Shown here piece after piece: positions 5,772 through 60,240 of a stretch of 64,000 nt of DNA (positions are counted from its first letter, which is position 1; every line of letters starts with the position of its first letter). This stretch comes from a virus. Both the position numbers and the translations under genes were made by a program. The stretch is from IMG/VR virus record IMGVR_UViG_3300028569_002801, positions 1-64,000 of that record. One strand, given 5' to 3'. The notes under the pieces are model-generated. The model was not told the DNA's origin and did no database searches. It worked only from the letters and a program-made list of their open reading frames with translations.

Positions 5772-5821
5772 CTTGTTATAAATATATCGTTGTTTCTAAA
5801 AGTTTTAATTCTTGTACGAAT

Positions 5822-5968: not shown

Positions 5969-5981
5969 AAAATTGTGTTAG

Positions 5982-10121: not shown

Positions 10122-10162
10122 ATCTTTGATTTATGTAAATGTAATACCTTTTTTTTAAATTA

Positions 10163-10582: not shown

Positions 10583-10586
10583 ACAT

Positions 10587-10617
10587 CAAAGATAGAAAAA
10601 AAAATTTAATGCACAAA
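10587..10617 (-). promoter_or_regulatory. Bacteroidota-type promoter
   Basis: Minus strand TTTG (10614-10617), 19 nt, TATCTTTG (10587-10594): an exact match to TTTG-N19-TAnnTTTG. It overlaps the T-run of the upstream terminator, so one transcription unit ends where the next begins. Confidence 0.85.
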
Positions 10618-10647
10618 AAAATGGATACAAATATTATCTGTATCCAT
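10614..10647 (-). terminator. Intrinsic terminator, minus strand
   Basis: ATGGATAC (11-nt loop) GTATCCAT followed by seven T on the minus strand. It ends the small-gene operon 11434-10780. Confidence 0.85.
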
Positions 10648-10779
10648 CAATTTTTTTCCTTATAAGATTTTAAACCTAAAAATAAAAACCTGAGATTACA
10701 GTTTTTGTTGAGAATCTTTAGAGTCATTATTGTTTCTACTCTTATCCACCATCTTTTGAATGGTATTTCTCAGTGACGA

Positions 10780-11106
10780 TTATTTAGGTGAATCACTCCT
10801 TGAGGTACTAGCTACTCTCTCATTACTCAACTCTCTTCGAGACTGCCGTCCCAACTCTTCCTTGCGGGAATAGAGGTTTTTGGTAAGAATATCGTTAAAC
10901 TTGCGGTTTAAACGATGCAATGAACGGCTCATTACTATGTAGTCACCTTTCACTATTACCTGACGAACACTTTTGCTTTTTAGTTTTAGTTTTACCTTTT
11001 CCATAAAAGTTTTTGTGTTGTGGATTGACCAAAGCAGTGGTCCGTCTTTCAGATTCGTTGTCTTTTGAACAACGAAATACCAAACTGCTTCGTGAAATGT
11101 CCCCAT
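10780..11106 (-). CDS. Hypothetical basic protein, 108 aa
   Basis: ATG at 11106, 1 nt after the stop of the upstream gene. Strongly basic (KVKLKLKSKSVRQVIVKGDY, SLHRLNRKF), with a Ser/Arg-rich C-terminus. Possibly nucleic-acid binding; no family recognised. It is the last gene before the terminator at 10614-10647. Codon and base composition are slightly GC-richer than the structural genes. Confidence 0.65.
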   Translation of the reverse strand: MGTFHEAVWYFVVQKTTNLKDGPLLWSIHNTKTFMEKVKLKLKSKSVRQVIVKGDYIVMSRSLHRLNRKFNDILTKNLYSRKEELGRQSRRELSNERVASTSRSDSPK

Positions 11107-22154: not shown

Positions 22155-22313
22155 ATGGAAACTAAAAAAGCAACACAAGTTAAAGGATGTAAACAATGTA
22201 AAAAAGGTTTAAACTTAACGCAAAAATCATTAATTGTGGTATCTATCTACATGTTATTTGCCGCAATATACGGAACAGTAGAAATAATAAAAGATTTAAG
22301 TAACCTCTTTTAA
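22155..22313 (+). CDS. Small membrane protein, 52 aa
   Basis: Plus-strand frame with a Cys pair (GCKQCKKG) in a basic N-terminus, then one hydrophobic segment ([18 protein letters not shown]). A TATTTAT motif lies at 22118-22124. Converges on dnaJ and overlaps its 3' end by 18 nt. Topology suggests a single-span inner-membrane protein; role unknown. Confidence 0.6.
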
Positions 22314-23285
22314 TAACTCCATTAAACTTTCCTTTACGTCACTAGTTAAAGTATAGTCGTTAGTTATTGTCATTTTAACATAAAAATCACCACTACCTAC
22401 ACCATCTCTATACCCTTTTTTAACTAACCTTAAAGGTTTATCTGAATTTAAATTTTTTGGCATATTAATAATTAAATCCCCATCAGGATGAGGTAAACGT
22501 ATTTGTTTTTCCGTTAATATATCAATGACGTTTAATTTTAAAGAATATACTAAATCCTTACCTATCTTTTCAAAATTATCATGTTTTATTAAATCAACTT
22601 TAATAATTAAATCCCCTCTAACTCCAGTAGTCTTTCCATAATCCCCCTTAGTCGCGATTCTTAAAAAATCCCCGTTATCTACGTTCTTTGGTATGGAAAT
22701 AGCGATTTTTTCTTTTTCTTTTACCATTCCATTACCGTTACATGTGTCACATTTTTTAGTGATTACACTACCTTGTCCTCCACAACCGTTACAAGTGACA
22801 TTAAATATTTGTTGGAACATTCCTGTACCCATTCTTTGCATCACATATCCTTGTCCTGCACACGTACTACAAACCGATCTATTACCCCCATTACCGTCAC
22901 ATGGTTTACAAACTTTTAAATAATCGTATGAAATTTCTTTTTCAATCCCAAAGTATGAATCTATAGGTGTCATTGATATAGAAATGACTTTATCAGGTGA
23001 TCTAGTGTTTTGTCGTCTACCGCCATTTACCATCTCCTCAAAAATACTTTGAGCATCAAAATTACCCCCCCTACCGGCAAATGGGTTATTTTTTCTTTGG
23101 TTATAATGCTGTCTTTTATTTTCATCTCCTAAAATGTCGTAGGCTTCAGCAATATCTTTAAACTTTTCTTCACCTTCAGGGTTTACATCTGGGTGATATT
23201 GTTTACTTAATTTTCTATATGATTTTTTTATTTCATCCTGAGACGCATTTTCTGCAACTCCTAATATTTCGTAATAATTTTTCAT
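22296..23285 (-). CDS. dnaJ: DnaJ (Hsp40) co-chaperone, 329 aa
   Basis: J-domain at 1-65 with YHPDVNP (HPD at about 32-34), Gly/Phe-rich linker, four CxxCxGxG zinc-finger repeats ([32 protein letters not shown], about residues 128-195), then the C-terminal client-binding domain. The domain order is that of a full type I DnaJ, only slightly shorter than bacterial ones. It likely recruits host DnaK to virion assembly or replication proteins. Its start codon overlaps that of the divergent gene at 23284. Confidence 0.95.
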
Positions 23286-37281: not shown

Positions 37282-37871
37282 TTGTATAAATCATTGTTTA
37301 GGTTAGATCCACCATGAAACTTGGCGGGAATATTGCCAAGTTGTTTTGGTATGTCTAACAATTGTTTTTCTAATTCTTCGTTTTTCTTTTTTAATTCTCT
37401 AACCTCCGAAGTAAGGTTTTGAATTGTTTGTTGTAACATCTTTAACTTATTATCGTCTACAGGAATGTCTAAATTACGTCTAAGTTCGTCTAAAGTTTGA
37501 CTAAGTTTAGATATTTCTTCATCTTTTTTAGTTATAGTTTCATTAAGGTCATTTTCAATGTTTTTGTCACTAATATATTCTATTTTTGTGACAATTTTCT
37601 CAACTTCTTTGATTACCTCAACTGGTACTTCTACCCGTTTTTCACGGATTACCTCAATTTCTACCCGTTTTTCACCAACAATACCCGTTTTTAAGTCTTT
37701 TTCATCTTCATTAAGTGTTTTTCCTAAAAGTCCGTATTTCTGAATATTAAATCCGGTGTCAAAACATTTTTTAATAAACCCATCAACATCTTCAATACTG
37801 TTTAGTTTACAGTATTCAGATACTGATTTCAATATGGTTTTATTAAATATTTCTGAGTACTTCAGTTCCAT
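37278..37871 (-). CDS. Coiled-coil protein with VEV/EKR repeats, 197 aa
   Basis: N-terminal helical domain, then short repeats (EKRVEIEVIREKRVEVPVEV), then a long coiled coil (about 110-175). Such repeats suggest an extended stalk. Internal in the gp46-gp47 interval. Overlaps the HNH gene start region by 29 nt. No enzyme motif. Confidence 0.7.
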   Translation of the reverse strand: MELKYSEIFNKTILKSVSEYCKLNSIEDVDGFIKKCFDTGFNIQKYGLLGKTLNEDEKDLKTGIVGEKRVEIEVIREKRVEVPVEVIKEVEKIVTKIEYISDKNIENDLNETITKKDEEISKLSQTLDELRRNLDIPVDDNKLKMLQQTIQNLTSEVRELKKKNEELEKQLLDIPKQLGNIPAKFHGGSNLNNDLYK

Positions 37872-38556
37872 TTATTTTATTACTTTTTTTCAAATTATCT
37901 TCAGCCCATAGTGGTTGGAGATTTGTGTAATGACAAAGTTTATAAACTTCATCTTTGGTTTTTGCTGAAGATAGTGGTATTATGTGATCTATATGTATCT
38001 TTTCACCCAATAATTCCCAACACATACTATCAGTAAATTTATTTTCAATATATTCTTTAAGAAATTCAGGCGTACACCCAACAATTTCAAATGTTTTGTT
38101 TTTTTTATATATATTTTTAGTTTTTATAAACTTATTAATCCTATTTCTAACATATGTTTTTAATTTAAAAAAACTATCATATTTTAACCTATTTTTGGTA
38201 TAATTTATACTTCTTTCAATAACTTTTTCCTTATTGTTTTCATAATATTTTTTTAATCTATTTTTTTCTTTTTCTTTATTTTTTTCCCGATATTCTTTAC
38301 TTAAAATTTTAAGTTTTTCTTTATTTATATTCCTATAATTGGATGCCACTTCTTTTCTTTTTTCAGTATTATTTTGTCTCCATAATTTAGATTTTAACTT
38401 TATCTCTTCAACATTCTCTAAATAATTTTCTGACGCCATTTTTTTACGACAAACTTTACAAGTTGTAAACCTACCATATAACCCACCTTTTCTTTTATGG
38501 AAATCATCCAATTTTTTATTACAATTACAAATTTTACATATTTTTGTATTTTTCAT
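37843..38556 (-). CDS. HNH endonuclease, 237 aa
   Basis: N-terminal zinc-finger pair (CKICNCNKKLDDFH, CKVCRKKM), very Lys-rich middle, and C-terminal HNH core KIHIDHIIPLSSAK with TNLQPLWAEDNLKKSNK. This is the same family as the gene at 42250-42771. A probable mobile homing endonuclease that interrupts the recombination module between gp46- and gp47-like genes. Confidence 0.88.
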   Translation of the reverse strand: MKNTKICKICNCNKKLDDFHKRKGGLYGRFTTCKVCRKKMASENYLENVEEIKLKSKLWRQNNTEKRKEVASNYRNINKEKLKILSKEYREKNKEKEKNRLKKYYENNKEKVIERSINYTKNRLKYDSFFKLKTYVRNRINKFIKTKNIYKKNKTFEIVGCTPEFLKEYIENKFTDSMCWELLGEKIHIDHIIPLSSAKTKDEVYKLCHYTNLQPLWAEDNLKKSNKINGTEVLRNI

Positions 38557-42249: not shown

Positions 42250-42771
42250 TCAAAACTTATTACTTTTAATATAATTTTCTAACGCCCATAATGGTTGTAA
42301 ATTTCCTAATGAATTAATCACTTTGGGGACCTCTTCTTTATCAAATGAAGATATTGGTTTTATATGGTCTATATGCCATAAACCGTAGTTTTCCCAAGAC
42401 ATCCCTTCTTTAAAGTTTTTTTCTAAATGTTGTTTAAGATCTTCCGCACTATAACCCAAAATATTTATTGTGTGATCTTTTTTTGAAATCTTTAAATGTT
42501 TTATTGTCCGATAAAGTAAAGTCCTCCAAGAATGGACATGTTTGTTTTTTTTATAATAGTTTTTATAAAATTCTTTTAAATAATCTTTATTATTTTCTCT
42601 AAACGTTTTGGCTCTTTTCCTATGTTCTATTTTTATATCTTCGTAATTTTCTTTAAAATTATTAGATCTACATATTTTGCACTGTTCCCTATAACCATCT
42701 TTTCTTCTTTTATGTTTATGAAATTCTGTTAATGGTTTTTCAATTTTACAAATTATACATACTTTACACAT
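42250..42771 (-). CDS. HNH endonuclease, 173 aa
   Basis: N-terminal CIICKIEKPLTEFHKHK and CKICRSNN finger, C-terminal HNH core LWHIDHIKPISSF with LGNLQPLWALENYIKS. Clearly related to 37843-38556, with a shorter linker. Located between terminator and primase. A TATTTAT motif lies at 42779-42785. Confidence 0.88.
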   Translation of the reverse strand: MCKVCIICKIEKPLTEFHKHKRRKDGYREQCKICRSNNFKENYEDIKIEHRKRAKTFRENNKDYLKEFYKNYYKKNKHVHSWRTLLYRTIKHLKISKKDHTINILGYSAEDLKQHLEKNFKEGMSWENYGLWHIDHIKPISSFDKEEVPKVINSLGNLQPLWALENYIKSNKF

Positions 42772-46245: not shown

Positions 46246-47847
46246 TTAACCAACTCTTATAGGTCTTGGACATATTAATCCAGTTTTTACCAATATCACT
46301 TCTTGAGGGTTAACAGAAGAGTTAACCGATTTACATAATGTAGGTGTTATTGTTATGTTTTGTATATTAACACTATCTTTTATCATTCCAAATAAATTGC
46401 AATGATCGCTTTCAACACAAGGAGTGTTTATGTATTGTACGATAGTTCCTGATATGGTCCCACTACCCGATAATTGTACAGTATAAGAAGTTGTGTAAGA
46501 ACTTAAATTTATATTACCTACTTCACACGCTGGATTAAAAGATGTTGATCCAACTGTCGATCCGGTTGTTGGTGATGATATCGTAAACCCACCTGTTTGG
46601 TTTGTTGTGATATTATTACTATAACTAATCGTAGGTGAAGTAATCGTATAAGCAGTTGTATTAACATTAAATAATAAATTCATATTAATAACGGTACCTA
46701 CAGGTAAAGGGTATGGACTAACACTTATCGACCAATTAGAGGTTTTTGTTGTTGAGTTACCTACCGTTATATTTGAACCAGGTGTTAAAATCAAACTTAC
46801 GTTATAATTTTGAAATAATTGTTGTGGTGTTAAAATCACTGTTTGACTTATAACTGTTAAATTAGAATCCTTAACATAAACAGTGTAAGTACCAGAAGAT
46901 AAACCAATAAAAGTATTAGATACTTGGTAATTTACAGAATCAATGGAATATAAATATGGTGATAATCCACCATTAGGGGTTATTGTTATAGAACCGTTAC
47001 TTGTTGTAGAACAAGTTGGGTTTGTCTTATTAACTGTCATTGTTAATGGTGGTGTTTGACAAATACCTGAGCTAACATATACAGTTGATCCATACGATAA
47101 TTGTCCGGTTAATGTCCAATTACCTGTTGGTGGTATAGTTGGTGATGCATAATATAAACCTCCCGGATATGTCCACCCACTAACGTTCCATTGTGTTGTA
47201 CCTGTATTATAATATATTGTTTGTGTATTGCTTGTCCAAGACGGATATCCATTTATTGTTGATCCTGAATTAAAATTAAATTGTGTTATATTTGTCCCTT
47301 GAGTAAGTTGTAAACACAAATCGTTTGGATATACGGGTGTCGGTGTAGGTGGTGGTAGACATTCGGTACAACCTGTAAACGGTCCATCAGATACTATTGG
47401 GAAATTACCAATATAAGTTTGTCCTGTATATAATGTTGTTCCACTGTTTGTCCAACAACCTATTTGTGTTGTTAACTGATAAACTGATCCACCACTTAAT
47501 GGGTTAACTAAATCTGCTAAATAATAAATAAAATTACCGGGAGTTTTACAATCCTCAAATGTATCGAGATAAAAACTATCATAACCAACGGTACATGTTG
47601 TTGTCGCGGTAAAATCGCCATAATAATCAACAACAGTCGCGGTATAATTACCGGGACTTAAATTAGTTAATAATGTCCCTTGTGAACCATTGTTCCAAGT
47701 AACATTATACGGAGACGTTCCTCCTGTTACAAATAACGCAATTAACCCATTGGTTGATTGAGGTGTTGACGCATTTATACTATCACACTCCAACCCCAAA
47801 GGTAAAATTGTTATGATATTACAACTATTTCCACTTAATTGTCCCAT
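46246..47847 (-). CDS. Tail protein with SprB-like repeats, 533 aa
   Basis: Two SprB-like units: GTSPYNVTWNNGS with LSPGNYTATVVD near the N-terminus and GLSPYLYSIDS with LSSGTYTVYVKDS near 300. A short Pro-Thr linker (PPPTPTPVYP) lies in between. SprB repeats occur in flavobacterial gliding adhesins. This is probably a host-contact tail fibre. Starts 1 nt after the stop of the upstream gene. Confidence 0.75.
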   Translation of the reverse strand: MGQLSGNSCNIITILPLGLECDSINASTPQSTNGLIALFVTGGTSPYNVTWNNGSQGTLLTNLSPGNYTATVVDYYGDFTATTTCTVGYDSFYLDTFEDCKTPGNFIYYLADLVNPLSGGSVYQLTTQIGCWTNSGTTLYTGQTYIGNFPIVSDGPFTGCTECLPPPTPTPVYPNDLCLQLTQGTNITQFNFNSGSTINGYPSWTSNTQTIYYNTGTTQWNVSGWTYPGGLYYASPTIPPTGNWTLTGQLSYGSTVYVSSGICQTPPLTMTVNKTNPTCSTTSNGSITITPNGGLSPYLYSIDSVNYQVSNTFIGLSSGTYTVYVKDSNLTVISQTVILTPQQLFQNYNVSLILTPGSNITVGNSTTKTSNWSISVSPYPLPVGTVINMNLLFNVNTTAYTITSPTISYSNNITTNQTGGFTISSPTTGSTVGSTSFNPACEVGNINLSSYTTSYTVQLSGSGTISGTIVQYINTPCVESDHCNLFGMIKDSVNIQNITITPTLCKSVNSSVNPQEVILVKTGLICPRPIRVG

Positions 47848-47848
47848 A

Positions 47849-49684
47849 TTAGAATGTTGAACCGCTTAATTGTTTCCATCCACTGTTATCCTTATAATAA
47901 AGGTAATTATTATCCCAAGTTATTGAACCTGGTTCACCTGTAGTGTCAACACTACTTGTTGGTGTGTATGAGGTACTAATTACAAAATTAGGTACGTAAG
48001 TTGTATCCGAATTAATGGCATTAATACCTGTTCCTCCTAATACAACGCTTCTAGATCCACTTACTGTGTTATTTCCACCCCCAATAATTGCGGACATAAA
48101 TGAATTAACAGTGTTTCCTGAACCACCAATAATTGCAGATTGTTTAACATCATCAGACGGAGATAAAAAGGTTATTTCATTTTCATATCCACCAAGTATC
48201 GCCCCACCATCAGTATCACCACTAGTTACTATATTATTCATTCCACCTAATGATACTGATAAGGGTCCGTTAGACTCATTATTATCTCCGTGTGTAAAGG
48301 ATACAATACCGTAAGAAACCGTCCCGACACCACCAGCATGTGAATTATCACCACTCGCTAATGTTCCTTTATTTTGTGAATGTGAATATTGTCCCGATGC
48401 AATTGTAAAGTCTCCTTCGGCGTGTGAGCCAATACCTATGGCATTACTTCCTGAACCTTCACTATGTGAATAATCACCATAGGATGTCGTTAAAAACCCT
48501 TCAGCATGTCCATAGATACCATATGTATACGATTGCCCTTCTGATGATGAATACAAACCAATACTATAAGAACCAGATCCTTTGGATGTTGATCCGTCAC
48601 CTATTGCCTGTGTTCTTTGTCCTGTTGCGTTTGCATTACGTCCCCCAAAAACTTGATTACCTCCCCATGATGATGGAGGATTTGTATCTGACATAATTGC
48701 TTGTGCTCCTAATGTATCGACTGATGTGTCATATAAATAAACTATAGTATTTGTACCATCAAATGTTACCGCACTAACACTAAATACAGATGACGGGTAT
48801 AATGAAGAATATGAAATATCATCAAAAAATACAAATGAAGTTGTTCCTGTCGTAAAGTTTAGTGAAACGTCACTATATGAAGAATCTAAAGTACATATCC
48901 CTGCGGTACACCCTGTTAATAAATAACCGTCATTTGATCCTGTTTTGGTTAGAGTGCCATTTGCATGTGAGTAGTTCCCATAAGTTCTACTACCGTTACC
49001 CAATGAAAATGATAATGTTCCATAAGCGTTAGAACCGTTAGTTTGTGTTTCATCCCATATTGAGATGGGTGAACATCCGTGAACGTTTCTTACATAAAAA
49101 TCAACAAAACAATTTCCTGAAGATGATCCAGGTAGATTATAGTATGTTGTTGCACTTATGGTATTTGCGGTTAAACCATTTGTAAAATTAGTCGGACCAT
49201 TAACTGTTCCTCCTGTAAATACACTACTACCACCTGTAGTTAAACCCGTTACCGTGAACGTACCTCCTTGATTATTTGTGAATGTAATCGTGTCAATACT
49301 AAACGTTCCTCCTGTAACATATGTGTCTCCTGTAATTTGTACTCCGTTAACAAAAAGGGTACTAGCGGATAGTGTATTAGCCGTTACACCATTACTAAAA
49401 ATAGTCGCACCTGGAACTGTACCACCCGTAAATACGGAACCTGAAGTGACTCCCGTTATATTTACCGTACCTCCGGTACTATTAGTGATAGTTATTGTAC
49501 CTGTACCACTATTATATGTTCCGCCGGTAATAGTCACAGAAGGGTATGCGTCAAACACTTGTTGTATTGATGCTTTATAAGATGACCCCGCAGGATCTTG
49601 TGATGTATCTCCTGTTATTACGATGTGAAGTAAATCGTCTACGGTTACTCCACTCGCTAAGGTTCTTGTTGTTAATTTTGCCAT
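47849..49684 (-). CDS. Tail fibre with YadA-head-like repeats, 611 aa
   Basis: The N-terminal module (RTLASGVTVDDLLHIVITGD, GSSYKASIQQVF) is shared with the 53092-53667 protein. The middle has Gly/Thr beta repeats. Residues about 370-500 carry repeats of the type SHAEGxxTxAxGxxSHSxG, as in YadA-family trimeric adhesin heads, then AIIGG-type repeats. Likely a trimeric fibre attached via the N-terminus. Confidence 0.8.
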   Translation of the reverse strand: MAKLTTRTLASGVTVDDLLHIVITGDTSQDPAGSSYKASIQQVFDAYPSVTITGGTYNSGTGTITITNSTGGTVNITGVTSGSVFTGGTVPGATIFSNGVTANTLSASTLFVNGVQITGDTYVTGGTFSIDTITFTNNQGGTFTVTGLTTGGSSVFTGGTVNGPTNFTNGLTANTISATTYYNLPGSSSGNCFVDFYVRNVHGCSPISIWDETQTNGSNAYGTLSFSLGNGSRTYGNYSHANGTLTKTGSNDGYLLTGCTAGICTLDSSYSDVSLNFTTGTTSFVFFDDISYSSLYPSSVFSVSAVTFDGTNTIVYLYDTSVDTLGAQAIMSDTNPPSSWGGNQVFGGRNANATGQRTQAIGDGSTSKGSGSYSIGLYSSSEGQSYTYGIYGHAEGFLTTSYGDYSHSEGSGSNAIGIGSHAEGDFTIASGQYSHSQNKGTLASGDNSHAGGVGTVSYGIVSFTHGDNNESNGPLSVSLGGMNNIVTSGDTDGGAILGGYENEITFLSPSDDVKQSAIIGGSGNTVNSFMSAIIGGGNNTVSGSRSVVLGGTGINAINSDTTYVPNFVISTSYTPTSSVDTTGEPGSITWDNNYLYYKDNSGWKQLSGSTF

Positions 49685-49708: not shown

Positions 49709-49990
49709 TTATTGAAATTCATATGGTACTCCATCCATAAATTCAAATAAATCTGAATTTTGGAATTGTTTATAGTATATTTCAGTATCACAATAAACAC
49801 ACCCGTTATCATCAATTATTTTTACAACGTAACTAGTGTATGTTTCATATATCGCGGGTAATGTAAATGTGTATGGTATTGTTGGTGTTGTGTCTATGTA
49901 TTGACAAGTACCATAACAGGTGTCACAAACCCATATATCGTATGGTGATGTTCCTGATGTTACTGAATTAATTGTTACTATTGTTGACAT
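49709..49990 (-). CDS. Small tail protein, 93 aa
   Basis: Starts with a single SprB-like half-unit (GTSPYDIWVCD...IIDDNGC) and ends FEFMDGVPYEFQ. The same C-terminal motif closes the 53689-53976 protein (FNFMDGVGYIFQ), and the N-terminus is shared with 53991-54560. Probably a minor tail or baseplate component. Confidence 0.7.
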   Translation of the reverse strand: MSTIVTINSVTSGTSPYDIWVCDTCYGTCQYIDTTPTIPYTFTLPAIYETYTSYVVKIIDDNGCVYCDTEIYYKQFQNSDLFEFMDGVPYEFQ

Positions 49991-49994: not shown

Positions 49995-51791
49995 TTAACA
50001 GTTTCCGTTTGGTGTGCATCTGAATGTTAACTTACCGTTACCGTCAACCTCAAATATTTGTGATATTGCATTACCACTTTGGTTGATAGGTACTTTTATG
50101 TATGTTAAACTCAAAGGTATTGTTAATGAACTATCTTCGTAAGCATATACTCCTGTTTGTATTGTATTCACATTAAATGATGTGAAGAAATTACCCACGA
50201 CACCAAAATTAGTGAGTTCACAAATAGGACAAGAGAGTGAAAATTCTCCTGATGCTCTCCATTCTTTATATTTTGGGGTCGGTGTTGGTTCAGGAGCTAA
50301 ACATTCTAAACAAGTAACATATGTTGTTGCAGTAGTCGCAGTAAAAGTATCTTGTGTTACTGATATAAATCCTGATGGTGGTGTATAACCCACATAGTTA
50401 CCGATATAATTATAACAATCCCCTGTGGTTTTTAAGATATCACCAATCAATACGTTTATCGGTGGATATGCGTTTTGTATAATCATGGTATTATTAGTAC
50501 AAGACGTGAATATAAATTGTGTTCCCATAGGGTATGATATTGGTATTGGTAACGCACATTCGGTATCGTCCGTACAAGTATTTCCCGATAATATCGTAGT
50601 TGTTCCTGTTACACAAGTAAATGATACGGTATTCTCTTGAGCACAAATACCAAAACTTGTATTACCCGTTATTATTAATGTTTCAGAGTTTCCTGAACAA
50701 CCAACCCAATTTACAGTACAACCACTTTCACTTGTTACCGTATAACAATAACATTGTGGAGTTGGTGTAGGTGTTGGTGTAGGTGTCGGCGTTACACAAA
50801 CCGAACAATCTGAATAAACGTCTAATACTTGTATTAAGTTTCTATTTGAAGATGCGGTTGTTTTACCGATATACGTTACACACTGTATTTGATTTGACGC
50901 ACTTCCGTATAAAAGTGCTAAGAATGTAGTTCCCGTACTAACAACAGACCCTGAATATGTTATTGGTTCTGTAATATAATAATGTTCACCCGTATCACAG
51001 TCCAATAAGTCTTTAACTGACGAACAAACAAAATCTCCGCTATCAACAACAAATGTTACTGTATCCGCCGATGGTGTTACAGGGCAATATGATGGTGTTG
51101 GTGTCGGAGTTGGTGTCGGAGTTGGTGTTGTCCCTGAAGTGGATATCGTTATTGTGGCAGTAAACGCACTACATATATCTGGTGTTGGTGTGGGAGTCGG
51201 TGTAGGTGTAGGGGTGGGGGTTGGTGTCAGAGTAGGTGTCGGGGTTGGAATATCACATTCTAACAATACGTCAAAATCTAAATCTGAACACGGATCTGTA
51301 GGAATTGGTGTTATTGAACATATTCCTTCGTACATTATGGTACTATCTAAATCGGGACATCCGTATGTTGTTGGGTTCTGCCCAAAAAAATCACAGGTTC
51401 CACCTAATGAATTACTTAAACACCAATTTGTTCCGTTAAAAAATATGTATCTCGGATTAGTTCCTCCTGTCCAATAATAATCCCCGCCATAATTACCTTC
51501 TAATGTATATGTGCCGTTATACCCACTATATGAACTAATAGGTATTGATAAGCAATAGTTATTTTGACAATACCCACTACAAAGTGAGTCATTACAGTCA
51601 GTAACCAAAGTAGCAACACCATCGATTGTAACGGTACTATTTACCAATGACCCAATAGTATAACAACCATCAGGTATATTTGTGTCACCCGTAATATTAA
51701 AGACTAAACCGAGCGTTGTCGAATAACTCCACCCACTTACACTAAAGTTTACACTACTATTTAAACAACTTTCTATGTTAACTAATGCCAT
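49995..51791 (-). CDS. Tail protein with four Pro-Thr tracts, 598 aa
   Basis: Contains four (Pro-Thr)n tracts, encoded at about 51178-51250, 51097-51133, 50758-50796 and 50273-50289. They join Cys-rich beta domains (over 35 Cys). Such tracts are flexible linkers and, in principle, substrates for O- or hydroxyproline-glycosylation. No enzyme motif. Likely a multidomain fibre. A TATTTAT motif lies at 51811-51817. Adjacent to the glycosyltransferase gene. Confidence 0.8.
   Translation of the reverse strand: MALVNIESCLNSSVNFSVSGWSYSTTLGLVFNITGDTNIPDGCYTIGSLVNSTVTIDGVATLVTDCNDSLCSGYCQNNYCLSIPISSYSGYNGTYTLEGNYGGDYYWTGGTNPRYIFFNGTNWCLSNSLGGTCDFFGQNPTTYGCPDLDSTIMYEGICSITPIPTDPCSDLDFDVLLECDIPTPTPTLTPTPTPTPTPTPTPTPDICSAFTATITISTSGTTPTPTPTPTPTPSYCPVTPSADTVTFVVDSGDFVCSSVKDLLDCDTGEHYYITEPITYSGSVVSTGTTFLALLYGSASNQIQCVTYIGKTTASSNRNLIQVLDVYSDCSVCVTPTPTPTPTPTPQCYCYTVTSESGCTVNWVGCSGNSETLIITGNTSFGICAQENTVSFTCVTGTTTILSGNTCTDDTECALPIPISYPMGTQFIFTSCTNNTMIIQNAYPPINVLIGDILKTTGDCYNYIGNYVGYTPPSGFISVTQDTFTATTATTYVTCLECLAPEPTPTPKYKEWRASGEFSLSCPICELTNFGVVGNFFTSFNVNTIQTGVYAYEDSSLTIPLSLTYIKVPINQSGNAISQIFEVDGNGKLTFRCTPNGNC
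50758..51250 (-). repeat. Pro-Thr-encoding microsatellite-like tracts
   Basis: Three arrays of 6-nt units (CCNACN on the minus strand, GGNGTN on plus) at 50758-50796, 51097-51133 and 51178-51250. Third-base variation shows selection for the peptide rather than recent slippage. Confidence 0.75.
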
Positions 51792-51854
51792 TGAATTATT
51801 ACTTTATTATATAAATAATCAAAAGTTTATTTTATTGATGGTTTGTTTTTAAAA

Positions 51855-53051
51855 TTATAAACTAAAGTCAATTCTGTTTACCCAATTACCTTCATTATCG
51901 TTTACCCAATACACCCATTTAACAGGGGTTTCTGTCGTTTTTAGTTTAACGTTTAAATATTCCTGATAACTGTACATGTCTTGTCTATGTAATACATTAC
52001 CTAACTCATTTTCAATTCCTATATATATAAATTTAAAATTTTCAGTATAAGGTATGTAAAGTTTGAACTCATATTCAATTTCCTTTAATTCGTACCAATC
52101 TGTATTATCGTTCACCGGTGGGTTTGTTCCTTTTATGGTTTCGGGATGTAACTTTTTATTTTTAAAGTTTATTCCCGCATAATTTTCATATTGTGTGTGT
52201 GTTCTAACGTCACCTAACCCATAAACCCCTAAAGCTATATTGTTATCCTCTTCTTGTAACATATGTCTTAATCTACGTTTAGAGTCGTTATCCATTTCCC
52301 ACCATTGTTTTTCAACAATACCATTATTTTTATTTTCTTGATTAAAGTCTGTCCAATGTTTTGTTCTACCTTCTCTTGTGTATTCATGCCAAACCACAGT
52401 CTTATGTGGGTGAAATAAATCGTAACCTAACGTATATGAACGAATAGATAAACTAATTTCATCACCAGCAAAATAGATATTAGGGTCATACTTATATTCT
52501 TCACAATGTTTTCCGATTGTAAAAAAGAAATGTCCACTAACAAATCTTGCGGGGATTGGTTTATCTAATGTTTGCCAATTTGGTATTGCGTGTGGTCTAA
52601 AAAGGATTGTTCCTCCCGGTGTGAAGTTAGACGCGACCATCATATATGGTTCAACATTTAATAATTGGTTATCTGATGGTCGGTACATTCCGGCATATGA
52701 TGTGATGATTGGTTTTTTTGAACCTGTTATATTCATCATTTCAATCAATTCCACATCCCAATCTTGTAAAAATCTATGATGTGAATCTAATTGTATGGTG
52801 TATTCTTCACCGTCCCATAATTTTTGAATTTCAGAACGAGCCCAACAAAGCCCTTTACTTTCACTCCAATGATAATCTAATATTTTAAATCTTTCATCAT
52901 TTGTGAATTCTTCCATCGATTCAGTTTCATCACGTTGCCAACAAATTCCAAATGTTAAATTTTCAGGGTGTTTTGCTTTATTAATACAATCCCTAATGGT
53001 TGGTAATAACTCAGGATCTCTATAAGATGCGATTTGTACAAATATTTTCAT
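51855..53051 (-). CDS. GlcNAc-type glycosyltransferase (PF11397-like), 398 aa
   Basis: The N-terminus IFVQIASYRDPELLPTIRDC and ENLTFGICWQRD match the GlcNAc transferase family that includes the eukaryotic Skp1 hydroxyproline GlcNAc-transferase. The metal DxH-type motif IQLDSHHRF, the acceptor-region GHFFFTIG, and FAGDEISLSIR follow as in the family. The C-terminal 120 residues are extra beta domain. Embedded among tail genes, so it most likely decorates tail proteins; host-surface modification is the alternative. Confidence 0.85.
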   Translation of the reverse strand: MKIFVQIASYRDPELLPTIRDCINKAKHPENLTFGICWQRDETESMEEFTNDERFKILDYHWSESKGLCWARSEIQKLWDGEEYTIQLDSHHRFLQDWDVELIEMMNITGSKKPIITSYAGMYRPSDNQLLNVEPYMMVASNFTPGGTILFRPHAIPNWQTLDKPIPARFVSGHFFFTIGKHCEEYKYDPNIYFAGDEISLSIRSYTLGYDLFHPHKTVVWHEYTREGRTKHWTDFNQENKNNGIVEKQWWEMDNDSKRRLRHMLQEEDNNIALGVYGLGDVRTHTQYENYAGINFKNKKLHPETIKGTNPPVNDNTDWYELKEIEYEFKLYIPYTENFKFIYIGIENELGNVLHRQDMYSYQEYLNVKLKTTETPVKWVYWVNDNEGNWVNRIDFSL

Positions 53052-53091
53052 ACAAATAAATTAGTTTTTTTTTCTTTTTTGTAAATCTTTA

Positions 53092-53667
53092 TTAACTTGA
53101 AGTGTACTTAATCTTCATTCCTAAAACATAAAGATTAGTATCATTTTGAAAAACACTTAAACCAAAAACATTATTTGATGTTATTCCAGACATATAAGGT
53201 AAAACATCCAATGATGTGAATTTATTGATATTATAACTATATGTCTGTCCTGTCGTTATTGTTGTGGCACTATAAAACGAATTTACGGGTCCGTATTGTA
53301 CGTTTATATCAGTAGAAACATTACCACTAAATGTTGGTATTGTTACCACTTCAGCGGATATCATAGAAGATAAATCGTTTGGAATTAATCCATTTATATA
53401 AACAGGGTCGGTACCTGCATTACAGGTACCAGCATAAAAGTTACCAATATAAGTAGGATTTGTTTCTGAACCTTTAAAGAAAATCTCTTTTATTTGATTA
53501 GTATTACCACTAAATATAGTACTTAATTGTTGTAACTCAACTTTATATGATGACCCGTAAAGGCTTTGTGACGTATCTGCAGTTGTTACAATATGTATAA
53601 TTGTAGTCGGAGTAATCGCCGATGATTGAGCTAATGTTCTATCTGTTAATAATTGGTATGTTGGCAT
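53092..53667 (-). CDS. Short tail fibre protein, 191 aa
   Basis: N-terminal module DRTLAQSSAITPTTIIHIV with GSSYKVELQQL is homologous to the first 50 residues of the 47849-49684 fibre. The C-terminal domain is different. Both probably dock to the same baseplate site. A TATTTAT motif lies at 53678-53684. Confidence 0.75.
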   Translation of the reverse strand: MPTYQLLTDRTLAQSSAITPTTIIHIVTTADTSQSLYGSSYKVELQQLSTIFSGNTNQIKEIFFKGSETNPTYIGNFYAGTCNAGTDPVYINGLIPNDLSSMISAEVVTIPTFSGNVSTDINVQYGPVNSFYSATTITTGQTYSYNINKFTSLDVLPYMSGITSNNVFGLSVFQNDTNLYVLGMKIKYTSS

Positions 53668-53688
53668 AGTTTATTTAATAAATATTAT

Positions 53689-53976
53689 TTATTGGAAAAT
53701 ATAACCTACTCCGTCCATAAAATTAAAATATATATCATTTTGAAACGCCTTTTGGACCTCACAATTAATAACTGTCGAGTACACACATCCATTTGTATCA
53801 ACAATTCTTAAATAAAGGTAATTTTCGTTTGGAAAAAAGTCATCAGTATCAAATATAATATTTGGTGGTATAAAGGTACTCCCTGAAACAAAAAAACAAG
53901 ACGTGTTAGTTGAGTCACATATAAAAATATCATATGGTGGTTGTCCGCTCGTTACTCCTGTTATTTCTACGTTCAT
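53689..53976 (-). CDS. Small tail protein, 95 aa
   Basis: Paralogue of 49709-49990 (QPPYDIFICD start, FNFMDGVGYIFQ end). A TATTTAT motif lies at 53982-53988. Minor tail component of unknown position. Confidence 0.7.
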   Translation of the reverse strand: MNVEITGVTSGQPPYDIFICDSTNTSCFFVSGSTFIPPNIIFDTDDFFPNENYLYLRIVDTNGCVYSTVINCEVQKAFQNDIYFNFMDGVGYIFQ

Positions 53977-53990
53977 ATATTATAAATACT

Positions 53991-54560
53991 TTAAGGGCAA
54001 GAAGGTAAATCGGTTACCACACCGGCAGTAACTTCTGCGATTGCATTATATGTTGGTGAACCACCTATTTTAACTAAAAAGTATCCTGTTAATAATGTTG
54101 GTGAACACCCAACATTATTAGAATATAAAATAGAACCGATTTGAGGTTCACTTTCATCAAGATACGCCAAAAAAGCCGCATTAACGGCACAAGTACCACC
54201 TGTAACACAATTAAATGCGGTACAGGCACTTAAAAATGAAGTATAAAAGTATCCCGTAATATTAGTTGAACTACCAAAAGGTGTGTAGTATGGATGTACT
54301 GTGCTTGGACCACAAGTTGGTGTCGGAGTTGGTGTAGGGGTTGGGGGTGGGTCATAACAAGAAACTAATTCAAAGTATTCACATCCTGTTGAATCAATAG
54401 TTTTAACCATTAATGTATTCGCACTTGAATAGAAGGAATTAAGTGTATATGTCCCTCCTGTTGTACTTGTTAAATAACAGTTATTTCCATATTCATCACA
54501 TAGGTAAACACTCAATGGTGGTGTTCCCCCTGTTGTTCCTGATATCGTAATAACACTCAT
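53991..54560 (-). CDS. Tail protein with Pro-Thr linker, 189 aa
   Basis: The N-terminal half resembles the two small tail proteins (GTPPLSVYLCD, then IDSTGCEYF). A (Pro-Thr)5-6 linker (encoded near 54318-54350) follows, then a Cys-containing C-terminal domain. Overlaps the upstream gene's stop by one base. Confidence 0.75.
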   Translation of the reverse strand: MSVITISGTTGGTPPLSVYLCDEYGNNCYLTSTTGGTYTLNSFYSSANTLMVKTIDSTGCEYFELVSCYDPPPTPTPTPTPTCGPSTVHPYYTPFGSSTNITGYFYTSFLSACTAFNCVTGGTCAVNAAFLAYLDESEPQIGSILYSNNVGCSPTLLTGYFLVKIGGSPTYNAIAEVTAGVVTDLPSCP

Positions 54561-57034
54561 TATTGATAAACTAATGTAAACCCCTCTTCTGTTATCATAA
54601 AATAACTATCTTCAGTTAATATTATAAATGATTGACTACAATCGTTACATACTACCTCATATTCTATTTTTAATCTTAAATAAAATTTACAATCACCTAA
54701 AGGATCAACATCACCAACACATTTTGAAATAATTTCAAATGTATTTGTTAATAAATCAATAGTAAAACTTTGTATGTTCGGTATACTACCTAAAATACCT
54801 TCGATTGTTGATTGCCAAAGAGTGTCTTGTGGAATATCATTTAGTGTTGTTGCAGTATAAAATGGTACAGTATATATAGTATCTCCCGATTCACAATCCG
54901 TATATACCAAGAAATCACCATTTTCTGTTGTAATTGTAAATACGTCCTCAGTTAAAATAAAACACGTATCACCAGATCCTGGACAATCAATTTCTATTTG
55001 ACAACTAAATACCGCCCCACTAAAACTACATCCGGTATATCCCGAAATAATATCAATATACCCCTCATTTAACATTTCCGATAAACCTCTTTTAGTTCCA
55101 ACAGTAGTCGTAAAAGTACTATTACAAATATTAAATAACTGATAAGATGTTGGAGAGATACCGTTACAATCTATTGTAAAATCTTGTATATCGTAACAAC
55201 CATTACTATCAGTTATTTCAACATAATAGTTTCCAGCGGATAAACCACTTACAGTTGATCCCGTTTGTCCGTTACTCCAATTATACGTAAAAGTTGGTTC
55301 TCCTTGATATATTACTACGGAAGCCGATCCGTCATTTCCATTAACACAATCTATTTTTTGTATGGAAGTTAAAAGTTGTCCTCCTGTTGTTATTGTAAAA
55401 CCTGTGGATACCGCACAACCAACACTATCAGTGACGGTTATCGTATAATTTCCTGGTAGTAAATTATTATATGTTATTCCTGTCGATGTGGTATCTATTA
55501 GGGTGTCTCCGTTACTTAATACATAATCTAAAACTCCCGTATATCCTGAAAATACCTCAATAACCGCAACACCGTTTGGTTCCCCACATGTTGACCCGGT
55601 AGTTGTTGCACTAACAATAAATTTTTGAGTAGATGTTATATTTAATGTTGTTGTATAAACACAACTTGTTCCTGAACCTGAAATTGTTAATTCATATGTA
55701 TCATTTTGTAAGTTAGTAAAACTATTAGTTTGATTAAGACTTGTATTTTGATAAACGGTGTTACCACTTAAACCTGATAAAGTGTATGTGTAATATCCTC
55801 CAAGCCCTGCAATTTGCACATCTATTTGTCCATTATTCTGATTGCAGTCTGAGTTGGTAACAATTATGTCTACCACATTAAATCCTCCTACGGGACTTAG
55901 AAACCCACTTAATGTTGTTTCACAAAAATTGGCGTCTCTTACAACAACTTGATAAGTTCCAGCAGCAAGGTTTGTTAATGTGAACACGTTTGATAATGTA
56001 TACCCAACTTGGGCGGTAGAAGCCGAATAATAGAAAGGAGCGGTACCTCCAGTTAAAAAATACGTCAGACTACCATCAGATGCGAAACAACTTGGTGTTG
56101 ATGCACTTAATAACCCTATACCTAATGGATCAGCAGCACCTACAAATTCACTTTTAGTTACCTCACAACCATTAATATCTGTTACCGTACAAGTATATAC
56201 TCCTTGTGTTAATCCCGTAATTAATTGTGTGGTTTCTCCATTACTCCACAAATACGTATAAGGTCCGGTTCCCGTAACTCCTGTTACCGCCAATTTACCT
56301 TTATCAATAACACAATTAGATGTATTCACCTTCCAAAAACCAAAATCTAAAGAAGTACTTGCAGATATTACCGCGTTTTCAGTGTTAGCCGTGGTACCAC
56401 CTGAATCAAAAACAGTAGCATAATAAATACCACTAGGTAATCCGTTAAAATCATATGGTAAAGTTCCTGTTGTTTCTACAACGTAAGGAACACCATCTTG
56501 ATAAAGAAGAATAGTATATGGGGCACCTGAAGATGTTGCACTTATAGTTAAAAATCCGGTATCTTGTCCACAAGTAGTTCCTGATGCGGTAACTACATTT
56601 GCCTCAAAACATCCCGTTACATTAACATTAACATATAATTCATTATTTTGTAAATTAAGAGTATCATTTATTCTGAACACATAAGTACCTCCTGTTAGCC
56701 CTGTAAATGTTATAGGAGAACTACTTGTTTGAGCAGTTAAAGTTCCCGGAATAATATTATCAATTGTGTATGGGGCAACACCACCATATGAAGTGAAAGT
56801 CACACTACCTGTTGCTGCGGAGCAAACCCCCGTAACTTGGAATCCGTAACTAAGTGGTCCTGATGTACATGTTTCTGTACAAGTTACCCCTGTAGCAATA
56901 TAAACCCCTCTTGCCGAACCAGAATATGATTCATCTATACATATACTTTCACCAAGTGAAACTCCGAATTGGTATAATCCACAACAGTCTACATATTCAT
57001 AAACACCATCCGTTAATCCTGATACACAAGCCAT
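54560..57034 (-). CDS. SprB-repeat tail protein, seven repeats, 824 aa
   Basis: About seven SprB-like units, for example GPYTYLWSNGETTQ with LTQGVYTCTVTDINGC, and PTFTYNWSNGQTG with LSAGNYYVEITDSNGC. Each starts at a Cys followed by NG or DG. The C-terminus contains two copies of an ILTEDxFxIT...LVY motif. Such repeats are typical of Bacteroidota adhesins, so the protein is probably a long host-binding fibre. Confidence 0.85.
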   Translation of the reverse strand: MACVSGLTDGVYEYVDCCGLYQFGVSLGESICIDESYSGSARGVYIATGVTCTETCTSGPLSYGFQVTGVCSAATGSVTFTSYGGVAPYTIDNIIPGTLTAQTSSSPITFTGLTGGTYVFRINDTLNLQNNELYVNVNVTGCFEANVVTASGTTCGQDTGFLTISATSSGAPYTILLYQDGVPYVVETTGTLPYDFNGLPSGIYYATVFDSGGTTANTENAVISASTSLDFGFWKVNTSNCVIDKGKLAVTGVTGTGPYTYLWSNGETTQLITGLTQGVYTCTVTDINGCEVTKSEFVGAADPLGIGLLSASTPSCFASDGSLTYFLTGGTAPFYYSASTAQVGYTLSNVFTLTNLAAGTYQVVVRDANFCETTLSGFLSPVGGFNVVDIIVTNSDCNQNNGQIDVQIAGLGGYYTYTLSGLSGNTVYQNTSLNQTNSFTNLQNDTYELTISGSGTSCVYTTTLNITSTQKFIVSATTTGSTCGEPNGVAVIEVFSGYTGVLDYVLSNGDTLIDTTSTGITYNNLLPGNYTITVTDSVGCAVSTGFTITTGGQLLTSIQKIDCVNGNDGSASVVIYQGEPTFTYNWSNGQTGSTVSGLSAGNYYVEITDSNGCYDIQDFTIDCNGISPTSYQLFNICNSTFTTTVGTKRGLSEMLNEGYIDIISGYTGCSFSGAVFSCQIEIDCPGSGDTCFILTEDVFTITTENGDFLVYTDCESGDTIYTVPFYTATTLNDIPQDTLWQSTIEGILGSIPNIQSFTIDLLTNTFEIISKCVGDVDPLGDCKFYLRLKIEYEVVCNDCSQSFIILTEDSYFMITEEGFTLVYQ

Positions 57035-57060
57035 ATATAATTTTTTTCTTTATTTTTTTA

Positions 57061-60000
57061 TTAAGGACAAACCCCCATGTTTATTGCTGATACAAATCTT
57101 GGAGATGTACTTGTTGGTATTGTAGTTGAGCAAACATTAAATGTTCCTCCACCTAAAAATGAAGTAGTCGTCCCAACCCCACTACAGTTATATGTGGTAT
57201 AAGCTCCTCCAGTTGGACTAAACGTTACTGCCCACATATATGTCACGCAAGGTGTAGGGGTTGGTGTAGGTGTTGGAGTTGGAGTTGGCGTCAAAACTGT
57301 TTGTTGTGAACAATTTATTTGTAAATCAACCCCTATGTTAAGATATAAGGTTTTACTTGTAAAATCGTCGTAACATGTTGAATTACTAACTACAAGTGTA
57401 CTTCCAGCCAAATAAAAATTTAATCCGTAATTGTATAATTCAACTAAATATGTATTAACCGCATTTACCAAATCAGTGGTTGATGGGTAACCACCAATAC
57501 CATACCCTGTATAAAATTGTTCTTGTACTAAAATTTGTGAATCTAACCTACAGTCAATATACCAATTAGTAACTATACTATTAATATCACAATCACTCTG
57601 TGTGAATCCACTATTAGTTAAAACGTTATTTAACGCATAATTCAATATTGCTGCCGGATCGGTTTTTACATCACATTTTAATGTCTGATCAATACAATCA
57701 TAACTAAATGGTTCTCCGTTATACGTACACGGAATACAAGAAACAGGAATAAATGTACAACCTCTTTGTCTTCTCCAAACAAACTTTTGTCTATGGAAAA
57801 TAGAATTTTCCATTTTTTGTCCTGTTAACCATAAAGTGGTTCCTGGAACTACTTGTTCTAATAGTCTTTGCCAATGATCACCTAAACCTAAAGTATAGTC
57901 TATCATTTTTTGATATGTAAACTTATTAGAAGGTATTCCTACAGTTTGATCAGACTCCAAATATCTCCAATAAACTGATTGTAACGTAGGGTAACCTCCC
58001 GTTTTACCATCAAATATTGTTTGTCGATTTCTAACATTAATGAAGTTATTATAAAAACTTTGAGCGAACTCAAAGAATGTTTTTTCTTTTGGTTTTGGGT
58101 TAATAAATGTCCAATCTATATTACCAGGATATGGGTATGGTGCCGTCAATCCTGAATTTGGTATAGGGTATCCGTACTTTACAGACATATCCCATATATC
58201 ATAAGTAATACCTTGACCCATGTTAGTATATAACTCAATATTTTTAGAATTAATTACTAACCTATCATCACTAACAGTATAATCTACCCCATTAAAATTT
58301 GACCCGTCTTTTCTATTCCCCGTATCATTAACTGCCCAAGATTTTTGATTATCACTTATCTTAGTTAACGTATACCCTTCTGCAATATCAGGAAAATCTC
58401 TAAACCTATCCATATATTCTTGTCCATATGTGAATGGTTTTAATGATGATATTAAATATGGGTTGGTTGGGTTAAAGGATGAGTTTACAGAGTCAGCCTC
58501 TTGATTTGATCTATGTTCAGGACTTGTCTCAAACCATCCAGCCCCTTTTTGGAAGAAGTTGTCGTCTGTAATTGCGGGACTTTGGGGGTACCCATCAGAA
58601 TCAACTCCGTAATCGTTTAATGTCGTTGTTATTAAATTTATAACCCCACTTGTAGTATATCCTGTGTAAATCACACCCAATAAACTAAATGTATTAGCCG
58701 GATCAAAAACAGGTGTCTCTACATATGTTGTCCCTCCAGAAATTTGACAATACTTTTCGTAAAAATCATTATAATTTATTTTAGTATCAGCCAAATAAAT
58801 AACTTCATTAAACTCTAATAATGCTTCAGGGGCACCTATAAATCTCATAACATATTCCAAAGATTGTCTAGTCCCCTTTGTTCTAAACATGTGTGCGGAG
58901 TTTAATATTATATTTCTATAGTATTGATAGTTTAACTCTGTTGGTGTGTCTGAAACTGACTGCCCAGGAAAAACTTGTTTAGCGTTTGGATCAAATACTG
59001 AATTTAAAAACCCTTCATTTGTTATTGGTGAGATGTCTGAATTAATCCCTAATGTTTGAGCTAAATTTGTGAGTAGTTGTGAAGGTATATCATTACCTAC
59101 TTGGTAATTTACAGAGTTCATATATGCTAACGCATCAATAAACTTTTTAACTTCATCAAAACTTCTACCGTATATTTGTAATACCTTTTCAATTTTTTGA
59201 TCATCAGTATCAAACTCTTTGAATGATCCTGTAATTAAAAATCTACTTATTAAATTTGTTTTATATTCGTCTAATTTTTCAGCAATACTCTGTATTTGAG
59301 ATATATATTGTTCAAATTTAGTACTATTAATATCTAAGTTCCAATACTTGTCTATCGGCCAAGTTACTTGTTTTGTAAATAAAGTATATTTACCTGCCGA
59401 ATCGTAATCAGGATATGTAAATTTAGCACTGTATTTTGGATACACACTTCTATTTAACATAAAATCTTCAACCTCATCAAAGTTATCTAAAAATACCTTT
59501 TCTGTTGTTTCATTATTTAATTTTATAACTAAATTAAAAGTTGATGCACTTTGTCCGGGAAACATATCCCCTTTCACTGTTAATGTAAGAGTACCCCCTG
59601 TCATATTCTCAACAGGAATCATATCCGTTACTTTGTATTCTGTACTAACATCTCTAAAATAAACGGCATAACTTTCAAAGTTATTAGTCATATCCCTAAA
59701 TGGACTAACAGTTATCGGTCTAGTTAATATGTTTCTAGCGGCGTTTTCAGAATAATCAATACTAAATGGGTTATAGATTAAACCAGTATTAATATCAAAA
59801 GTGGTTTCATCGTTTTTTCTATCATAAACAATATTAGATGCAGTATTTCCTGTATATAATCCTGACGTTTGTCTTGGATAAACCTCTAAAGCCGCAGGGA
59901 AAAAATTTATTACCTTTATAATTGAGGTTGACATTCTTTTCTGTAGGGAACCATACAACGAAAAACTAGTGATTTCCGATATATCAAAATTTGGGTAAAC

Positions 60001-60240
60001 TTTAAAAGTCTTTTCAATAATCCTTTTTACCTCTTCAATATTATCTATTTTAAGGTTTTCTAAAGTATAAGGATTAGAAAATATACCAGTGTCAAATTTT
60101 CTATTTGTCTTTTCATATATTGCACTAGTAAACTCAAAATTACCTTGCGTCAAACCTCCCCCATCCACAATTTGGAATCCTACAAGGTTATCAGAAAAGG
60201 TTTTAACCCCACCAGGTGGAAAAAATATTTTATTTGCCAT
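57061..60240 (-). CDS. Large baseplate or tail protein with Pro-Thr tail, 1059 aa
   Basis: The middle has ILNSAHMFRTKGTRQSLEYV with MRFIGAPEALL, a pattern seen in baseplate-wedge and P2 gpI-like tail proteins. The C-terminal portion carries a (Pro-Thr)n tract (encoded near 57249-57296) followed by a small domain. Overlaps the gene at 60240 by one base. Likely baseplate wedge; exact T4 equivalent uncertain. Confidence 0.75.
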   Translation of the reverse strand: MANKIFFPPGGVKTFSDNLVGFQIVDGGGLTQGNFEFTSAIYEKTNRKFDTGIFSNPYTLENLKIDNIEEVKRIIEKTFKVYPNFDISEITSFSLYGSLQKRMSTSIIKVINFFPAALEVYPRQTSGLYTGNTASNIVYDRKNDETTFDINTGLIYNPFSIDYSENAARNILTRPITVSPFRDMTNNFESYAVYFRDVSTEYKVTDMIPVENMTGGTLTLTVKGDMFPGQSASTFNLVIKLNNETTEKVFLDNFDEVEDFMLNRSVYPKYSAKFTYPDYDSAGKYTLFTKQVTWPIDKYWNLDINSTKFEQYISQIQSIAEKLDEYKTNLISRFLITGSFKEFDTDDQKIEKVLQIYGRSFDEVKKFIDALAYMNSVNYQVGNDIPSQLLTNLAQTLGINSDISPITNEGFLNSVFDPNAKQVFPGQSVSDTPTELNYQYYRNIILNSAHMFRTKGTRQSLEYVMRFIGAPEALLEFNEVIYLADTKINYNDFYEKYCQISGGTTYVETPVFDPANTFSLLGVIYTGYTTSGVINLITTTLNDYGVDSDGYPQSPAITDDNFFQKGAGWFETSPEHRSNQEADSVNSSFNPTNPYLISSLKPFTYGQEYMDRFRDFPDIAEGYTLTKISDNQKSWAVNDTGNRKDGSNFNGVDYTVSDDRLVINSKNIELYTNMGQGITYDIWDMSVKYGYPIPNSGLTAPYPYPGNIDWTFINPKPKEKTFFEFAQSFYNNFINVRNRQTIFDGKTGGYPTLQSVYWRYLESDQTVGIPSNKFTYQKMIDYTLGLGDHWQRLLEQVVPGTTLWLTGQKMENSIFHRQKFVWRRQRGCTFIPVSCIPCTYNGEPFSYDCIDQTLKCDVKTDPAAILNYALNNVLTNSGFTQSDCDINSIVTNWYIDCRLDSQILVQEQFYTGYGIGGYPSTTDLVNAVNTYLVELYNYGLNFYLAGSTLVVSNSTCYDDFTSKTLYLNIGVDLQINCSQQTVLTPTPTPTPTPTPTPCVTYMWAVTFSPTGGAYTTYNCSGVGTTTSFLGGGTFNVCSTTIPTSTSPRFVSAINMGVCP

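Follow-up and report, generated by a model that had tools for sequence, protein, structure and literature searches.

We analysed the first 64,000 nucleotides (hereafter the window) of a 114,715-base viral record (IMGVR_UViG_3300028569_002801; G000), where a predicted glycosyltransferase (GT) gene on the minus strand lies among genes for proteins with alternating proline-threonine (Pro-Thr or PT) tracts (Table 1). A preliminary description of this DNA had recognised a PF11397-like transferase here, and the assignment is borne out. The product matches PF11397 with an E-value of 3.5e-66 (224.5 bits, the Pfam cut-off being 21 bits), the best stretch covering positions 95-350 of the 352-position model and a second one positions 2-44, and it matches PHROG 24687, annotated as a glycosyltransferase, with an E-value of 6.5e-97. 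It is the sole PF11397 gene across the entire record.

A PDB sequence search with the GT returned no chain at E <= 1. The AlphaFold2 model, built from a 50-sequence alignment (predicted local distance difference test, pLDDT, 94.9), is all-globular with no evident membrane segment, and its 50 best PDB matches in Foldseek are in every case polypeptide N-acetylgalactosaminyltransferases (GalNAc-transferases; E-values down to 2e-12), several of them crystallised with mucin peptides that contain Thr and Pro. These enzymes start mucin O-glycosylation, and in families GT27 and GT60 a DxH motif replaces DxD (PMC7185993). The phage enzyme has such a DxH and a candidate C-His, H222, both strictly conserved in an alignment of 50 viral and bacterial homologues; by its motif and by analogy with GT27, rather than by superposition, H222 would be a metal ligand. 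The profile match, the DxH, the C-His and a GT-A fold without a ricin-like lectin domain place the enzyme with GT60. GT27 provides the closest structures and has DxH and C-His in common with the phage GT, but the match is one of fold only, at about 13% identity and with a TM-score, taken over the query, of about 0.5. Moreover, the position of the GT27 ricin-like domain is occupied by a different, all-beta C-terminal segment, found in most phage relatives. The phage GT would work like GT27 enzymes without being a member. With the protist enzymes of CAZy family GT60 it shares the Pfam family, the DxH and the lack of a ricin-like domain, but it is viral and soluble, has no Golgi or signal anchor, carries the extra all-beta segment, and has virion tail proteins as its predicted substrates.

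The tract protein encoded directly downstream of the GT contains PTPTPT, (TP)8, TTPTPTPTPTPTP and (TP)6. Its longest alternating run is 16 residues, whereas shuffling its sequence 2,000 times gave no run longer than 6. The tract codons are mixed (CCA, CCC, CCT and CCG with ACA, ACC, ACT and ACG), and therefore the tracts are maintained at the protein level; the scrambled codons and the shuffles together rule out an origin as a DNA microsatellite. As in mucin-type substrates, dense Thr/Ser is combined with Pro in low-complexity sequence. Tracts are also present in two other proteins that the preliminary description had listed as flanking the GT (53991-54560 and 57061-60240). It overstated the case for a third, 46246-47847, in which the motif is too short to count. 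Relatives of the 57061-60240 protein are either 980-residue forms without a tract or 1120-residue forms with one, and the SprB-repeat protein at 54560-57034 has no tract here, whereas the same gene in relatives often has one, of up to 101 residues. The genes for the PT proteins run in the same direction as a baseplate-J/baseplate-wedge gene and are located downstream of it, and a tail-sheath gene is found elsewhere in the record. It is a fair inference from gene position that these are tail-module proteins, and to that extent their earlier designation as tail proteins stands. Pfam, PHROG and phage-collection searches found no annotated tail homologue of any PT protein; in the phage collection, neither the tract protein nor two neighbours gave a match.

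Table 1. Features of the locus (positions in the window).
Feature	Position	Strand	Basis
PF11397/GT60-type polypeptide glycosyltransferase (predicted), 398 aa	51855..53051	-	Pfam, PHROG, AlphaFold2 model, Foldseek
DxH motif D89-S90-H91 (in QLDSHHRF)	52779..52787	-	Invariant in 50 homologues
H222, candidate C-His (in WHEYTR)	52386..52388	-	Invariant in 50 homologues
C-terminal all-beta segment of the GT, residues 325-397	51861..52079	-	AlphaFold2 secondary structure
Pro-Thr tract protein, 598 aa, gene directly downstream of the GT	49995..51791	-	Tract length beyond all shuffles
Pro-Thr tracts 1a/1b of 49995-51791, residues 182-204	51180..51248	-	Translation, scrambled codons
Pro-Thr tract 2 of 49995-51791, residues 221-233	51093..51131	-	Translation
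Pro-Thr tract 3 of 49995-51791, residues 334-345	50757..50792	-	Translation
189-aa protein, N-terminal beta domain and PPPTPTPTPTPT linker (54315-54350)	53991..54560	-	Translation
1059-aa conserved structural-module protein, (TP)7 (57250-57291) near C-terminus	57061..60240	-	Tract scan
824-aa SprB-repeat protein	54560..57034	-	PF13573 E 1e-17, 6 stretches
191-aa ORF just upstream of the GT, family c1, hypervariable in relatives	53092..53667	-	Comparison of relatives
533-aa SprB-repeat protein; only PPPTPTP (47335-47355), no true tract	46246..47847	-	Pfam, tract scan

A first scan provided a close set of 41 viral relatives (L003-L043). In nearly all close relatives with enough flank, the first or second gene downstream of the GT encodes a protein of 532-698 residues with several (PT)n tracts, and the family of the 598-residue protein occupies this place, with its tracts, in all but a few of the set. 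An open reading frame (ORF) of 265 residues (family c12) often stands between the two. When loci were scanned by a conserved structural gene (c7), tracts were present within 10 kb in 43 of 43 GT-positive loci. However, linkage in close relatives is weak alone, since the whole module passes down as a unit; co-inheritance in one lineage, tested with c7, does explain much of this signal. The close set alone thus proves little, and the case for a link is built on the distant loci and the sampling of contigs.

For the distant set, at least 586 viral matches came up in a profile scan; the 80 best were taken, 71 of them new. The pooled set comprises 124 viral GT loci, among them phages XacN1 and RAS14. 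Mucin-like ORFs, defined as rich in Thr, Pro and Ser, lie within 3 kb of the GT in 85 of the 124 loci. After masking of the tracts, the 128 mucin-like ORFs of these loci fall into 32 families with no relationship to one another beyond the tract, which indicates that the GT goes with the tract and not with one fibre gene. Because some contigs duplicate one and the same phage, locus counts exaggerate independence and the family count is safer. Among the 71 distant loci alone, a mucin-like ORF lies no more than 3 kb from the GT in 43 (61%), compared with 4/77 and 7/79 (5-9%) of the central genes of control contigs and with 19/65 pseudo-centres placed elsewhere in the same distant loci (p = 3e-4). 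Tract-bearing genes are likewise concentrated at one or two genes from the distant GTs (42/269, 15.6%) relative to positions beyond five genes (15/551, 2.7%; p = 1e-10), and the adjoining gene often encodes mucin-like sequence such as PTVTPTPTPTVTPT, TQTPTNTQTPTQTP, PTATPTATPT or SPTPSPSPSP.

The association was also approached from the tract. PF11397 was found in 10 of 50 viral contigs picked solely for DNA encoding (PT)7, as opposed to none of 48 picked for (PA)7 and one of 49 picked for a neutral motif (pooled controls 1/97; Fisher p = 9e-5; length-corrected binomial p = 6e-4). The distance from the GT to the tract gene in the ten contigs is at most about 2.5 kb in six, 6.6 kb in one and 12 kb in one; in the remaining two, the sequence read immediately next to the GT contained no tract gene. 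The sole neutral contig with a GT (L404, also G114; GT at 9970-10998) has Thr-rich tracts nearby (APTTTTSTTSTTTSTT). By both linkage and reverse tests, the association between GT and tract is beyond chance. Collagen-like (GTSGTNGTSGSS)n proteins are encoded directly upstream of the GT in L031 (8899-9801, plus strand), L413 and L467 and are candidates for further Thr/Ser-rich substrates.

Taken together, the homology, fold, conserved motifs, tracts and recurrent linkage argue that the phage GT probably transfers an N-acetylhexosamine (HexNAc) to threonines of Pro-Thr linkers in the phage's own tail-module proteins. A parallel is offered by Xanthomonas phage XacN1, in which ORF334 is a homologue of the GT (36.5% identity) and ORF350 and the 3051-residue ORF325, in the ORF334 region, carry mucin-like tracts. 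According to passages of the XacN1 paper, this phage encodes two glycosyltransferases, ORF328 and ORF334, and proteomics detected at least two glycoproteins in its virions, which the authors suggested are made by the phage enzymes (PMC5852040). XacN1 is a 384-kb jumbo phage of another clade, and the link between ORF334 and the glycoproteins is a suggestion of its authors.

Several observations weigh against self-glycosylation. In those passages the XacN1 glycoproteins are not assigned to the tract proteins. No mucin-like ORF lies within 3 kb of the GT in 39 of the 124 viral loci. Bacterial homologues adjoin mucin-like ORFs in just 12 of 68 cases, which implies that the PF11397 family has other substrates too. 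As many as 40 of the 50 (PT)7 contigs have no PF11397 in the recovered sequence; Pro-Thr linkers thus do not need the GT. In the c7 scan, tracts are present in 33 of 37 close-lineage loci without a GT within 10 kb and therefore do not depend on an adjacent GT. PF11397 lies elsewhere on the contig in 16 of 29 GT-negative contigs of the close lineage, but 13 have none.

Tracts that occur where the GT is absent would also be expected if the GT belonged to a mobile tail-fibre module and modified host surface polysaccharide or another host target, for superinfection exclusion or receptor change, its Pro-Thr neighbours being incidental to variable tail-fibre regions. Such regions are hypervariable here as well, and phages, chiefly temperate ones, are known to carry GTs that alter the surface antigens of the host (passages of PMC12619734). 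Nonetheless, we consider a host target unlikely: the closest folds are polypeptide transferases, the GT model shows no membrane segment, and the GT follows the tract across 32 unrelated families and is enriched in contigs picked by tract alone.

Which residue would be modified is a separate matter. The preliminary description had proposed self-glycosylation of the phage's Pro-Thr linkers, for protease protection or adsorption. Self-glycosylation is probably right in view of the linkage, the fold and XacN1, and either benefit is conceivable, but for the chemistry the description had relied on an analogy with Skp1, which is probably wrong. The Skp1 GlcNAc-transferase (GlcNAc, N-acetylglucosamine) of PF11397/GT60 acts on hydroxyproline (PMC8724618). 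This enzyme, Gnt1, is cytoplasmic and soluble and belongs to the same Pfam family as the phage GT, and the tracts are rich in prolines; a prolyl hydroxylase could thus make hydroxyproline in the tracts, to which the GT would add GlcNAc. However, Gnt1 acts on a hydroxyproline of one folded protein, and the Skp1 subtype comes with a partner prolyl 4-hydroxylase. The preliminary description had proposed looking for a prolyl hydroxylase in the rest of the genome, and a search for PF13640 (2OG-FeII_Oxy_3) found none across the record or in 50 GT-positive viral contigs, with the qualification that other dioxygenase families and host enzymes lay outside this search and that contigs may be incomplete. 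The same search found the family in two control genomes. The tracts themselves point the same way. In the 42 tracts that adjoin GTs of distant phages, the Thr phase holds 77% T and 10% S (87% T/S), whereas the alternate phase is 53% P, the rest being V, T, S, I, Q and A. In tract contigs without a GT the alternate phase is 84% P, a comparison biased by the choice of these contigs for PT. Additionally, tracts of the type TSTQTSTQTSTQTPTNTQT occur, as does, near its GT, the Thr-rich sequence of G114 noted above. With Thr constant, Pro variable and no PF13640 hydroxylase, we rejected the Skp1 model as the lead reading and regard hydroxyproline in the tracts as a very remote prospect.

Poly-Thr/Ser mucin-like tracts near the GT of G114 (VAPTTTTSTTSTTTSTT) fit Thr as the acceptor. 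GT60 also comprises polypeptide alpha-GlcNAc-transferases, among them the Golgi enzyme of Dictyostelium and TcOGNT of Trypanosoma cruzi, that start mucin-type O-glycosylation directly on Thr (PMC8724618, PMC9472816, PMC3188802). Activity of this type from T. cruzi was assayed on the Thr peptide KPPTTTTTTTTKPP (PMC3769586), and a Thr/Pro domain with PTVTPTPPLTPTPTPEV... and PTVTPTPPLTPTPTPEVTPTP... is found in gp72, a surface protein of T. cruzi (PMC3630849). The acceptors of the protist enzymes are Thr-rich mucin-like domains, and the gp72 domain is near-identical in style to the phage tracts. The constancy of Thr and the known activity of GT60 enzymes on Thr favour Thr as the putative acceptor.

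If self-glycosylation is correct, 51855-53051 would encode a GT-A polypeptide glycosyltransferase of PF11397/GT60 type that is soluble and depends on metal. Within infected cells this enzyme would place HexNAc, most likely alpha-GlcNAc from host UDP-GlcNAc, onto tract threonines. The main substrate would most likely be the 49995-51791 protein, probably together with the 53991-54560 protein and the C-terminal tract of the 57061-60240 protein. The tracts would then be extended mucin-like linkers in the virion, stiffened and shielded by glycosylation. In principle the GT might act on a different virion protein, such as capsid or tail tube, or on modified DNA bases. Passages of PMC12619734 describe glycans on mycobacteriophage capsid and tail-tube subunits (Freeman et al. 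2023, as reported there) and phage GTs that glucosylate DNA. These mycobacteriophages likewise glycosylate their own virion, at capsid and tail-tube C-termini, whereas here Pro-Thr linkers of tail-module proteins are predicted. Such other targets seem improbable, even more so than a host target, as the gene lies in the baseplate/fibre region, is repeatedly linked to tract ORFs and has the fold of a polypeptide transferase.

In many relatives, neighbouring genes (c12, GT25, GT10, PF04488, GT29, GT34 and UDP-galactopyranose mutase) might extend the first sugar to a longer, lineage-specific glycan. Genes beside the GT encode GT25 (L440, L446), the fucosyltransferase GT10 (L450), a rhamnosyl-O-methyltransferase/CmcI-like protein (L433), a weak match to GT group 1 (L437) and PF04488 (L039, L179). 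Family c12 follows the GT also in L033, L408, L413, L416 and L423; it has no match in Pfam or PHROG, and its AlphaFold2 model, of moderate confidence (pLDDT 72), matches GT-A transferases of GT6 type and also GT31-like folds. Directly beside Pro-Thr tract genes we observed members of the sialyltransferase family GT29 (PF00777, E 1e-17 and 3e-22; L581:2083-2673(-) and L562:5222-5824(-)), which is known mainly from eukaryotes. A GT34 gene is next to the tract gene in L582. A UDP-galactopyranose mutase (PF03275, E 1e-76; L595:4428-5531(+)) also adjoins a Pro-Thr tract gene, in a neighbourhood with a weak GT31-like match, and suggests galactofuranose on the virion glycan. In L581, L562, L582 and L595 these glycan genes adjoin the tract gene in loci without a nearby GT; L582 and L595 carry a PF11397 gene elsewhere on the contig. 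In our own record a non-exhaustive search for possible extenders found no second GT: PF00535 was not found, and the searches for PF04488 and c12, without a positive control there, were empty. The glycan of this phage may be a single sugar, or its extender may have gone unrecognised.

Mucin-type O-glycosylation is regarded as a process of the eukaryotic secretory pathway. We see roughly even chances that aquatic tailed phages encode a complete modular version of it, each with its own virion glycan, in which a GT60 initiator would mark Thr in the tracts of whichever adhesion or tail protein has them. The exchangeable extenders would be fucosyl-, galactosyl- and sialyltransferase-like enzymes, UDP-galactopyranose mutase and a sugar O-methyltransferase. 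To our knowledge, virion glycosylation is documented for few bacteriophages only. The phage system would combine two known things, GT60 mucin-type glycosylation and virion glycosylation; their pairing on the phage's own tail linkers would be new, and a literature search for phage PF11397 or phage mucin-type glycosylation found nothing. A GT60 enzyme tied to the mucin-like tracts of 32 unrelated phage families makes a specific enzyme-substrate pair to test, and suggests what the (PT)n linkers, a puzzling and common feature of aquatic viral proteins, may be for. Glycans on the virion surface would add a layer to the interaction between phage and host and to phage antigenicity, and bacteria could be made to produce mucin-like glycopeptides with the GT as a simple, soluble tool. 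Moraphages are large aquatic Bacteroidota phages with DnaJ and several core glycosyltransferases, and the window also has DnaJ; the passages of PMC12619734 concerned name no GT60 or Pro-Thr substrate.

Other genes of the fibre region and beyond deserve mention. Small paralogous beta domains of 93-95 residues (ITGVTSGQPPYDI...FMDGV.Y.FQ) recur among the fibre genes (49709-49990, 53689-53976 and 53991-54560, all on the minus strand); the two ORFs of 93 and 95 residues group with the 53991-54560 protein in family c0, and the 53991-54560 copy is fused to a Pro-Thr tract. A 611-residue, adhesin-like protein with weak YadA-head-like repeats (SHAEG motifs) is encoded at 47849-49684(-). In L030 (14392-15570, plus strand) and L038, a protein encoded behind a von Willebrand A domain protein has a long PT rod at its N-terminus and a legume-lectin domain at its C-terminus, and looks like a lectin-tipped tail fibre. 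DnaJ occurs together with an Fe/Mn superoxide dismutase in the same phage record (window 22296-23285(-); L046:2578-3663(+)). HNH-endonuclease-like ORFs at 37843-38556(-) and 42250-42771(-), with HIDHIIPLSS and HIDHIKPISS, are possible homing endonucleases, and 14 tRNA genes are clustered on the minus strand at 773-6055.

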